Shown: piece by piece, positions 38,216-41,246 of the stretch
How the letters are laid out: each line of letters begins with the position of its first letter
Numbering within the stretch: the first letter of the stretch is position 1
NCBI GenBank assembly: GCA_025455065.1
Contig: JALONG010000047.1
Span: 1 to 60,827, forward strand
DNA from: Candidatus Kapaibacterium sp.
GTDB taxonomy: Bacteria; Bacteroidota; Ignavibacteria; Kapaibacteriales; UBA4661
DNA: 60,827 bases
Reading direction: 5' to 3'
The notes under the pieces: generated by a model
The model's input: only the letters and a program-made list of their open reading frames with translations
Database searches by the model: none
Told to the model about the DNA's origin: nothing
Translations under genes and position numbers: made by a program

Positions 38216-38647
38216 ATGACCAAAAAAGCAACTTTGCAACTCGACGGTGTGATGCGTCTTGTCGGCACCAACGAAACAGGGCTGACAACGGCATTTGATG
38301 TTTCCCCCGAACACGGCGGACAAAACACTGCCGCATCGCCGATGGAAGTGTTTCTACAATCGGCGGCGGCGTGCTCCGGCATGGATATTTTGAGTATTAT
38401 TCGCAAAAAGCGTAAAACCGTTGGTAATCTCCGCATTGAAATTGAAGGAGAACGCGCTGAGGAGCATCCGCACGTCTATACTTCGATTCAAGTGCATTAC
38501 ATTCTGACAAGCCCCGATGCAAGCGAAGCAGATATGCACCGTGCGTGTGAGCTTTCGCAAGACCAGTATTGTAGCGCTTTTGCAATGATTAAACGAAGCG
38601 GCTGCGCTGTGACGTGGAAATCCACCGTAGAGCGCCCGACGGCATAA
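38216..38647 (+). CDS. OsmC family protein
   Basis: A 143-residue OsmC/Ohr-fold protein. MEVFLQSAAACSGMDILSII contains the first conserved cysteine and Glu, and SQDQYCSAFAMIKRSG the second cysteine, the pair that reduces organic hydroperoxides in OsmC/Ohr enzymes. Overall it is nearer the YhfA branch of OsmC than true Ohr. ATG 38216 follows the 16-bp tandem repeats. Probable role in peroxide or redox defence; substrate untested. Confidence 0.9.
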   Translation: MTKKATLQLDGVMRLVGTNETGLTTAFDVSPEHGGQNTAASPMEVFLQSAAACSGMDILSIIRKKRKTVGNLRIEIEGERAEEHPHVYTSIQVHYILTSPDASEADMHRACELSQDQYCSAFAMIKRSGCAVTWKSTVERPTA

Positions 38648-38752
38648 AGACTTTACAAGAATTTTCGATAACTACGAAGTATTGATGCGGTTTTCCGTGA
38701 TACGGTTGCCCACGCAATACCACCTTTTCTCCATTTCAATTTGATGATAACT

Positions 38753-39937
38753 ATGAGCAAATCAGCACTTGATTACATCGTGCCAAAGACGGCGGCAGCT
38801 CGTGCCCGTTACAAACCGGGCAACCGCCCTTCGTTTGCGCACTTTGTCGAAGATTATATCAACCAAGAAGTTGATATTCAGGGCAACTTCTTTGATTTTA
38901 TGACTTTGCGTAATGGCTATTTCAGCTATGGCATCACCGCTCACCACCTTGGCTTCATCGTGCGCCGCATGATTCCTGAGGTGCTTATTCACTCCAAAAA
39001 ACAAGATGAGCGCATTGTCCGCGACCACTACGACCGTGGCAACGACTTTTTCCGCTCTTTCCTTGGTCCTCGCATGGTTTATACAAGCGGCTTTTTCGTG
39101 GATTTGGAAACAGATACGCTGGAAATGGCACAAGACCGCAAAATGCAAATGGTCTGCCAAAAATTGCATATGAAAGAAGGCGACCGCCATTTAGACATCG
39201 GTTGCGGCTGGGGAACGCTTGTCACCTACTCTGCAAAGCATTTTGGCGCTAATTCTACCGGCGTAACGATTGCTCAAGAAGGCTATAATTGGGGTATGAA
39301 GCAAATCGCCGATAACGGCGTAAGCGACCGTTCACGCATCTTGCGCATGGATTACCGTGATATTCCCAAGCAAAAATTTGACAAAATTACGTGCTTGGAA
39401 ATGGGCGAACACGTTGGTATTCGCAAGTTCCAAGGCTTTATCAATCAAATTTACGGGTTGTTGGAAGATGACGGAAAATTCTACATCCAACAAGCAGGCT
39501 TGCGTGCGAATCCGGGTATTTTCTCTACCGGACAGCATTGGGAAGATTTGATTTGGGGCTTGTTTATGAATGAATACATTTTCTCCGGCGCTGATGCCAG
39601 CACACCGCTTGCATTCTTGGTTCGTGCATTGCAAGATGCAAATTTTGAAGTGAACACCGTTGAAAATCTCGGTATTCATTATTCGCACACCATTCACAAA
39701 TGGTACGATAATTGGCTCGAAAACGAAGAATACATCAACAGCACCTACGGTGTGTGGTGGTTCCGCCTTTGGCAAATTTTCTTGCGCTGGTCAGTAGATA
39801 TTGGCGCACAAGGTTCTTCCACGTGCTGGGCGATTATTGCGCACAAGAACTTCAACGAAACCAATCGTAATGAGTACATTGGTAAATTGAATCTCGGCGA
39901 ACGCGCATCGGAACTTGCTGTTCCCACAACGCTCTAA
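38753..39937 (+). CDS. cyclopropane-fatty-acid-synthase superfamily methyltransferase, similar to sphingolipid C9-methyltransferases
   Basis: A 394-residue SAM-dependent lipid methyltransferase. VRDHYDRGNDFFRSFLGPRM, MVYTSGFF, the SAM motif LDIGCGWGTLVTYSAKHFGA, MDYRDIPKQKFDKITCLEMG and EHVGIRKF place it in the CFA-synthase superfamily. YIFSGADASTPLAFLVRALQ and NLGIHYSHTIHKWYDNWLEN are strongly reminiscent of fungal glucosylceramide C9-methyltransferases as I remember them, rather than of ordinary bacterial Cfa. No membrane helices are evident, whereas the fungal enzyme has two. The true substrate (unsaturated phospholipid chain or sphingoid base) is open. ATG 38753 is preferred over TTG 38741 and ATG 38744. 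Confidence 0.85.
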   Translation: MSKSALDYIVPKTAAARARYKPGNRPSFAHFVEDYINQEVDIQGNFFDFMTLRNGYFSYGITAHHLGFIVRRMIPEVLIHSKKQDERIVRDHYDRGNDFFRSFLGPRMVYTSGFFVDLETDTLEMAQDRKMQMVCQKLHMKEGDRHLDIGCGWGTLVTYSAKHFGANSTGVTIAQEGYNWGMKQIADNGVSDRSRILRMDYRDIPKQKFDKITCLEMGEHVGIRKFQGFINQIYGLLEDDGKFYIQQAGLRANPGIFSTGQHWEDLIWGLFMNEYIFSGADASTPLAFLVRALQDANFEVNTVENLGIHYSHTIHKWYDNWLENEEYINSTYGVWWFRLWQIFLRWSVDIGAQGSSTCWAIIAHKNFNETNRNEYIGKLNLGERASELAVPTTL

Positions 39938-39972
39938 GAAATTGCACAAAAATACGTGAACAAATATTCTTC

Positions 39973-40104
39973 GTAGCACAGACATTCCTGTCTGTGTCCC
40001 TAACGCCGACAGGCGTAATGACTGACCGAATATCGTTGTTAATACTGATTTTCAAGACTATTCGCTTTGCTCATTTTGAACACAGACAAGAATGTCTGTG
40101 CCAC
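39973..40104. repeat. 132-bp inverted palindromic repeat pair (type B)
   Basis: The outer units GTAGCACAGACATTCCTG... (from 39973) and ...CAAGAATGTCTGTGCCAC (to 40104) face each other. Next to the left unit lies the second-level hairpin TAACGCCGACAGGCGTAAT, shared with the loci at 33304 and 59259. It lies between the lipid methyltransferase and a terminator. Confidence 0.9.
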
Positions 40105-40155
40105 AGTGAAGATTATTCTCTTACTTTTTGGCAGTTCTTAACAGCCTCACGAAAA

Positions 40156-40766: not shown

Positions 40767-41246
40767 ATGAACCATCGTTTTTTCTTCGCCGCGCTCATCG
40801 CGTTTGTGTTTGCTGCCTTGCCGACATTTGCCCAAACCATGACGCATGAACAACTTGCGGAAAAGCATAAAGCCCTTGAAGCGGAACACCGCCAAATGGA
40901 AAAAGAACATCGTCAAATGGAGAAAGAGCATCAAAAAATGATGCGCGAGCATGACAAAATCAGCAAAGGGAAGGATACTGACCATACATCCATCGAAAAA
41001 GAGCATCGGAAAATGATGCGCGAGCATGATGCCATCGTAAAGCAGCACGAAAAACTTATTCGCAAACACGCTGCGTTGGAAAAACGCCATAAATCCGGCA
41101 AACTCAGCGCAGAGCAAGTTGCCAAAGACCATGAAATGCTGGAAAAAGAGCATGAAACCATGAAGCAGGAGCATGAAAAGATGAAACAAGAGCATGAAAA
41201 AATGAAACAAGAACACGCAAAAATGCTCGAAGAACACAAGAAATAA
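40767..41246 (+). CDS. secreted His-rich heptad coiled-coil protein
   Basis: A 159-residue protein with a signal peptide (1-23, ending PTFAQ). It is otherwise one long coiled coil made of seven-residue units such as MEKEHRQ, MMREHDK and MKQEHEK, with a histidine after Glu in nearly every heptad, 16 or more in total. The 3' part contains about three 21-bp near-tandem DNA copies (41148-41218). Such regular EH spacing could create metal-binding ladders or a charge-patterned fibre. I do not recognise a family. It ends in a branched terminator and precedes a sigma-factor gene. Confidence 0.8.
   Translation: MNHRFFFAALIAFVFAALPTFAQTMTHEQLAEKHKALEAEHRQMEKEHRQMEKEHQKMMREHDKISKGKDTDHTSIEKEHRKMMREHDAIVKQHEKLIRKHAALEKRHKSGKLSAEQVAKDHEMLEKEHETMKQEHEKMKQEHEKMKQEHAKMLEEHKK

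Follow-up and report, generated by a model that had tools for sequence, protein, structure and literature searches.

Passages of two papers on fungal sphingolipids (PMC5954224, PMC3887071) describe a Delta8-desaturase that acts before a C9-methyltransferase; the C8-C9 double bond is formed first and a methyl group is then placed at C9, and deletion of the desaturase left the glucosylceramide (GlcCer) saturated and unmethylated. The fungal C9-methyltransferases (EC 2.1.1.317) include NCU07859/scumbo of N. crassa, MTS1 of C. albicans, and MT1/MT2 of F. graminearum. In passages of the literature, C9-methylation of sphingolipids was termed 'fungus specific' (PMC5954224) and 'only found in fungi' (PMC9325734). 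One passage of PMC13161914 counted the enzyme among the 'fungal-specific rare enzymes', and another passage of the same paper placed it among the enzymes that are reduced in flagellated fungi when set against animals and early diverging eukaryotes. A passage of PMC11765627 cited a 9-methyl base from giant scallops and placed branched bases in fungi, sea cucumbers, Bacteroides, and other organisms. The 9-methyl sphingoid lipid is not strictly a fungal mark. Among the open-licence papers listed in our search, none dealt with bacterial C9-methylation as judged by the title or the start of the abstract.

We analyzed a whole contig of 60,827 nucleotides (hereafter, the window; contig C15) from the 5.6-Mb, 131-contig genome of a Candidatus Kapaibacterium sp., whose closest named relatives were Ignavibacteria/Kapaibacterium MAGs in the Bacteroidota/Chlorobiota group. 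Our preferred reading, in which we place about even confidence, is that the product of one gene of the window is a CMAS-family C-methyltransferase that depends on SAM, acts on a desaturated membrane-lipid chain, and gives it a methyl branch, with a sphingoid base or ceramide as the most likely substrate. In the mechanism that we propose, a partner membrane desaturase encoded in the same genome would make a C-C double bond in the lipid chain, and the methyltransferase would move the methyl group of SAM onto that double bond; the resulting cation would be discharged with no cyclopropane ring closed, and the product would be a methyl-branched chain. Fungi use a Delta8-desaturase first and a C9-methyltransferase second, and by analogy the substrate would most likely be a sphingoid base or ceramide starting from the probable serine palmitoyltransferase (SPT) of the genome.

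The methyltransferase and its bacterial clade

The methyltransferase gene (38753..39937, forward strand) was found to be an open reading frame of 394 amino acids plus a stop codon, with an ATG start and no internal stops; a start at the in-frame TTG at 38741 would lengthen the protein by four residues. The ATG reading was supported by near relatives that aligned from residue 1, for example L005 and L006 over residues 1-394. A Pfam scan revealed a single CMAS domain (PF02353, 208 bits, residues 80-357), and a CMAS-type SAM methyltransferase domain was therefore present. The motif LDIGCGWG (residues 147-154; 39191..39214, forward strand), which we take to be the SAM-binding motif, was invariant in 13/13 sequences of an alignment that comprised the window protein and 12 relatives. 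An initial annotation of the window had pointed to two segments, and both were found in the protein, FSGADASTPLAF (residues 277-288) and HYSHTIHKWYDNW (residues 309-321). In the same alignment, 14 of their 25 positions were invariant (F277, G279-S283, P285, L286, H309, Y310, T313, W317, N320, and W321); because of this invariance and the score of 208 bits against CMAS, the two segments cannot be put down to chance. The two segments and longer motifs may be nearer to the fungal C9-methyltransferases than to the common bacterial cyclopropane synthases, as that annotation had suggested. Full-text searches of open-licence papers for motif strings gave, among the papers listed, none that was by its title on a fungal C9-methyltransferase.

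The AlphaFold model of the methyltransferase showed a mean pLDDT of 85.1 with 13 sequences in the alignment. Its top structural matches in the PDB were the Cfa synthases of A. aeolicus, L. acidophilus, and E. coli together with mycolic-acid methyltransferases, and its PDB relatives by sequence were Cfa synthases, at best with 168.9 bits. The protein missed all of the NCBIfam Cfa cut-offs (186.9, 179.9, and 161.5 bits against cut-offs of 400, 650, and 600, respectively) and also missed the mycolic model NF040660 (110.2 bits, cut-off 390). In a tree built by a quick method from 59 of 64 rows (L007, L010, L013, L020, and L182 were dropped, and the rows comprised neither fungal nor mycolic enzymes), 34 clade rows were divided from 25 Cfa rows by a single separating branch with an SH-aLRT of 100 and a stem of 1.75 changes per column; the tree carried a long-branch warning, and several of the long branches were plasmid-derived Cfa rows. 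The initial annotation had set the protein apart from the common bacterial cyclopropane synthases. The missed cut-offs, the separate branch, and a Gln in the position that corresponds to His266 of E. coli Cfa bear this out, and in the tree without fungal rows the protein did not fall among ordinary Cfa enzymes. By its sequence, the methyltransferase is not an ordinary cyclopropane synthase and forms one branch with its bacterial relatives; we class it as a CMAS-superfamily variant rather than as an established C9-methyltransferase.

A scan of genome contigs yielded 35 loci with relatives that were 47-91% identical over the best segment and belonged to Kapabacteria/Ignavibacteria, Flavobacteriales, Saprospiraceae (with Aureispira), Myxococcota, and Spirochaetota; the deltaproteobacterial relatives were Polyangiaceae and one other deltaproteobacterial MAG. 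In a sample of 395 genomes of the phylum, 118 matched at E 1e-25 or better, 12 contained clade members, and 106 held CMAS-type matches outside the clade only. The clade members were at least 54% identical, and the next among the matches listed reached at most 35%. In the source genome, the window gene was the only full-length CMAS match found; three other matches were weaker, with partial profile cover and open frames of 192-291 amino acids. One clade gene match (L053, in G026) contained one in-frame TAA, which may reflect a match that overran the end of the gene itself, and another, in G058, was split over two contigs (L054 and L055). Carriage by viruses or plasmids was considered and rejected. 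Viral contigs returned no relative to the single methyltransferase query or to the partner desaturase query, and the nine viral relatives returned to the clade-alignment query, at 27-32%, were by identity not clade-like; 266 plasmid records matched, all below 60% identity (22.8-35.6% among the 40 matches listed).

An OsmC-family gene (38216..38647, forward strand) lies directly upstream of the methyltransferase gene and was found beside it in 5/37 neighbourhoods (the window, L005, L006, L007, and L015). We do not think that it is part of the methyltransferase function. Only near relatives have this OsmC gene in common with the window, together with a UDG gene and a protein that matches no Pfam family, and for this reason the OsmC/UDG neighbourhood was given no operon meaning. 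Downstream of the methyltransferase, positions 39960-40110 of the window contain two short stretches that look palindromic by eye, with ACAGACATTCCTGTCTGT and ACAGACAAGAATGTCTGT, and positions 40767-41246 encode a 159-amino acid protein that consists mostly of repeated EH/KH-rich heptads (for example, KEHRQMEKEH) and has no Pfam match.

A proposed partner desaturase and a probable serine palmitoyltransferase

Five PF00487 matches in the source genome corresponded to four proteins, and the Pfam scan found a cytochrome b5 domain in none of the four. Delta8-sphingolipid desaturases typically carry such a domain. The partner desaturase (L073; G000:C54:120330-121262) contains 311 amino acids and three His boxes. 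It is 49% identical to a desaturase on a Saprospiraceae contig (L028:4083-4979), which is located 9 bp upstream of a clade gene (L028:4989-6173) on the same strand. A related desaturase, 33% identical to that of Saprospiraceae, stands tail to tail with a clade gene on a Flavobacteriales contig (L166). Adjacency of the desaturase and the methyltransferase was seen in only 2/37 neighbourhoods, as grouped by blastp clusters. The Flavobacteriales region (L166:14520-18741) contains an FAD/NAD-binding oxidoreductase (543 amino acids) and the membrane desaturase in a row, followed by the methyltransferase tail to tail. The partner desaturase sequence had no meaningful match in the PDB, and the mean pLDDT of its structure model was 38.2.

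In the phylum sample, the partner desaturase was present in 22/395 genomes, namely in 12/12 clade-bearing genomes compared with 10/383 others (Fisher 2.5e-17), and by genus in 9/9 clade-bearing compared with 7/161 others; these statistics ignore ancestry. Among these matches, that of G337 consisted of two overlapping pieces in different frames, and that of G059 was partial. In this sample, the desaturase was seen without the methyltransferase, whereas the methyltransferase was never seen without the desaturase, as would be expected if the methyltransferase needs the product of the desaturase; the fungal pathway follows the same logic. As a control, a DesA-like desaturase of the source genome (L074) was found in 50/395 genomes, including 11/12 clade-bearing genomes and 39/383 others, and part of the signal is thus common to desaturases in general. 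Only the conditional counts favour the partner desaturase over the control: within the L074-positive genomes, the partner desaturase occurred in 11/11 clade-bearing compared with 7/39 other genomes (p 8.5e-7), and within the partner-positive genomes, L074 occurred in 11/12 compared with 7/10 (p 0.23). About 3 kb from L074, on contig C112 (about 84 kb), is a gene for a CrtW-like beta-carotene ketolase (L075), which scored 300 bits against NF045690 (cut-off 350).

At closer range, the partner desaturase was present in 14/15 clade-bearing genomes of the window's order (G058 was without it) and in 10/46 others, and when the window's own genus was removed, the counts were 6/7 and 10/46 (p 0.002). 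Within families the link was thin (4/4 compared with 2/6 in f2, p 0.07; 1/2 compared with 3/7 in f9). We also counted 25 clade-bearing genomes across phyla, a set of clade-bearing genomes only; 24 of them had a desaturase match, which was at least 37% identical to that of the window genome in 21 and 28-30% identical in three. Distance correlations over 18 genomes were 0.81 for the methyltransferase and desaturase, 0.71 for the methyltransferase and SPT, and 0.77 for the desaturase and SPT; the mirror-tree correlation was rejected as evidence, as it was not specific.

A PF00155 search of the source genome gave 15 places, among which G000:C112:14580-15803 was the candidate SPT. Its two top PDB sequences, both serine palmitoyltransferases, scored 374.5 bits each, ahead of 257.1 bits for the entry that followed, and its best NCBIfam model was the SPT model NF047600 (472.7 bits, compared with 375 for the next model), although the cut-off of 640 was missed. 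The source genome probably encodes SPT. The sphingolipid proposal of the initial annotation, which would fall if the pathway were absent, has thus been upheld in part: a probable SPT is present in the same genome, but its score lies under the curated cut-off.

In the window's order, 60/61 genomes had an SPT match (E of 1e-40 or better), and 58/61 had a close ortholog (at least 66% identity); the ortholog was missing from G002, G022, and G045. As G002 bears the methyltransferase, SPT was counted in 14/15 clade-bearing genomes of the order. In the phylum sample, SPT matches at E 1e-90 or better were present in 12/12 clade-bearing genomes, which is weak evidence alone because 301/395 genomes have such a match (approximately 4% by chance). 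The 25 genomes across phyla were taken from 25/35 scan loci (L005-L010, L015, L020, L038, and L039 were left out), and 19 of them contained an SPT-like gene of at least 44% identity, 18 in full length and one, in G061, cut at a contig end. An NCBIfam check of 2/19 of these genes (L112 and L116) gave the SPT model as the best in both. The best SPT-query match was of the Kbl type in G062, G063, and G072, and the models tied in G081-G083; the weaker matches of G062, G063, G081, and G082 were classified in part. Among clade-bearing genomes, SPT was thus seen in 14/15 of the order and in 12/12 of the phylum sample, but in 6/25 genomes across phyla it was not seen or was unclear. With 19/25 genomes SPT-like, three Kbl, and three ambiguous, the sphingolipid step is the weakest part of our explanation.

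Unsaturated phospholipid acyl chains are methylated in the pathways to 10- or 11-methyl and furan fatty acids. The main rival to a sphingoid substrate is that the same desaturase provides a phospholipid acyl chain, which is methylated with sphingolipids uninvolved, a reading that we consider possible and a serious contender, if less probable than our own. The plasmid Cfa relatives of Roseovarius and Sulfitobacter, which are kin of bacteria with the furan fatty-acid pathway, were only 26.9% and 26.6% identical (two among the matches listed), and in the phylum sample 22/22 genomes with the partner desaturase also had SPT matches (E of 1e-90 or better), compared with 301/395 overall; both observations argue against this rival. 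In contrast, the Flavobacteriales genomes G062 and G063 contain the methyltransferase, in G062 beside a desaturase, and their classified SPT-query matches are of the Kbl type, apart from one further match of G063 that is of the BioF type. The co-occurrence of the second, DesA-like desaturase L074 also favours the phospholipid, and a passage of PMC11387697 describes phospholipid acyl chains as the substrates of the Cfa relatives.

Several features were observed around the SPT genes. SPT is followed by a same-strand short-chain dehydrogenase at L159:12046-14033, L160:9659-11646, L161:3536-5519, and L162:3452-5425; on the basis of a Pfam scan of the L159 copy, this dehydrogenase is a candidate 3-ketosphinganine reductase. 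At L164:4706-7090 (reverse strand), an SPT-type enzyme and a C-terminal GNAT domain share one frame of 795 amino acids (Pfam scan of L164 only), possibly a fusion of SPT and an N-acyltransferase. Long open frames at SPT matches were also present in G068, G071, G073, G074, G075, G237, and G277, and frames of 801-847 amino acids were seen at SPT matches. Proximity of SPT and the desaturase, at approximately 2-10 kb (L159 in G070, L160 in G052, L162 in G010, and, by coordinates, G067), was rejected as evidence; unrelated genes lie between them, G052 has no methyltransferase match, and G010 and G052 belong to the same family. We found no paper on SPT in Saprospiraceae in the open-licence literature, and no title among the open-licence papers listed concerned the lipids of Kapabacteria; a paper on Black Sea sphingolipids (PMC11334938) mentions neither Kapabacteria nor Ignavibacteria.

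The active site compared with E. coli Cfa

According to a passage of PMC11387697, E. coli Cfa holds a bicarbonate, believed to be the proton acceptor, by Glu239, His266, and Tyr317. We compared the corresponding places in 38 clade rows (the window protein, 33 scan loci, and 4 phylum-sample loci; the partial L038 and L039 were excluded) and 20 Cfa rows; two of the 38 clade rows, L014 and L169, are identical over the tree columns. Two of the ligands were retained on the forward strand of the window: Glu219 (39407..39409), at the place of Glu239, was Glu in 38/38 clade and 17/20 Cfa rows, and Tyr310 (39680..39682), at the place of Tyr317, was Tyr in 38/38 and 20/20. The third place, that of His266, is occupied by Gln246 (39488..39490, forward strand), which was Gln in 38/38 clade rows, whereas the 20 Cfa rows contained His in 15, Gln in two, Leu in two, and Ile in one. 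The bicarbonate ligand set of Cfa is thus incomplete in the window protein. Gln at this place is not by itself diagnostic of the clade because the Cfa rows L178 and L186 also carry it. Ser112 (39086..39088, forward strand), at the place of Cys139, was Ser in 35/38 clade rows (Gly in two and Thr in one), compared with Cys in 18/20 Cfa rows, and the place of Ile268 was Ala in 37/38 clade rows and Ile in 18/20 Cfa rows. Additionally, an insert of about residues 251-272 (39503..39568, forward strand) precedes the GADAS segment in the alignment; its length varies within the clade, and it was absent from the five Cfa rows shown. The stretch after the EHV segment comprised 163-192 residues in six clade members compared with 132-143 residues in four Cfa rows.

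The bicarbonate site of Cfa is thus changed in the clade from His to Gln, with Ser in place of Cys and Ala in place of Ile nearby; we infer that a base site altered in this way would fit the transfer of a methyl group with no ring closed. The alternative, a cyclopropane fatty acid synthase that has diverged in sequence but keeps the ordinary activity, draws on the CMAS domain, the Cfa-like fold, and the retained equivalents of Glu239 and Tyr317; moreover, the gene is the sole full-length CMAS match found in its genome, and 5/20 Cfa rows also lack His266. We regard this alternative as unlikely, since the near-uniform Gln, Ser, and Ala of the clade, the three missed Cfa cut-offs, and the separate branch all speak against it, and since the clade tracks a desaturase of 22 genomes while 106/395 genomes have only non-clade CMAS. 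It is highly improbable that shared ancestry or lifestyle explains the co-occurrence with the desaturase and SPT and that another unsaturated lipid (a carotenoid, hopanoid, or hydrocarbon) is the substrate: the CrtW-like ketolase of the same genome, the neglect of ancestry in the counts, and a methyltransferase-desaturase correlation little above the other two would suit such a reading, but the association persists by genus and within the control-desaturase genomes, the desaturase is at least 37% identical in 21/25 genomes over phyla (counted in clade-bearing genomes only), and one desaturase-methyltransferase gene pair is separated by a gap of 9 bp. We therefore keep to a methyltransferase of desaturated chains, most likely of sphingoid bases or ceramides, as the preferred reading.

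Comparison with known systems

With the Cfa synthases (E. coli 6BQC, A. aeolicus 7QOS, and L. acidophilus 5Z9O), the window protein has in common its domain and fold, the ligands Glu and Tyr, and the N-terminal part. It differs in its low identity (24-28% in the structure alignments), in the clade replacements of His266 by Gln, Cys139 by Ser, and Ile268 by Ala, and in the insert, the longer stretch after EHV, and the separate branch of the clade. The mycolic acid methyltransferases (UmaA, MmaA1, MmaA4, and CmaA1) share the fold of the catalytic domain, with a TM-score for CmaA1 of 0.86-0.93 by target length, but the identity was only 21-26% among the chains listed. The CmaAs are described in a passage of PMC11387697 as being without the N-terminal domain of the Cfa synthases.

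In fungi, the pathway starts with SPT, and the C9-methyltransferase follows a desaturase; this is the order that we propose here. As given in passages of PMC9325734, NCU07859 is annotated as Cfa-like, contains 525 residues with an EHV segment at 341, and includes two transmembrane segments, residues 53-75 and residues 87-109. With residue 341 taken as the Glu, EHV is followed in NCU07859 by 182 residues, as compared with 163-192 in the six clade members. Six residues of NCU07859, hand-translated from a published primer, look similar by eye to the loop that L036 and L037 have after YTS(G). In contrast, the part before EHV is approximately 122 residues shorter in the clade, and transmembrane segments like those of NCU07859 were absent, as 0/34 clade proteins reached a Kyte-Doolittle mean of 1.6 in a 19-residue window. 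A further difference from the fungal Delta8 step is that no desaturase of the cytochrome b5 type was present among the four of the source genome.

Such a clade in bacteria, together with a partner desaturase, would broaden the known lipid chemistry of bacteria, supply anchor-free enzymes for structure work, and open the origin of the fungal C9-methyltransferase to testing. We put forward, as a conjecture that is more doubtful than plausible, that several bacterial phyla carry a desaturase and methyltransferase module that methyl-branches sphingoid bases, and that the clade is the source or the sister of the fungal C9-methyltransferase, whose anchors would have been gained later.
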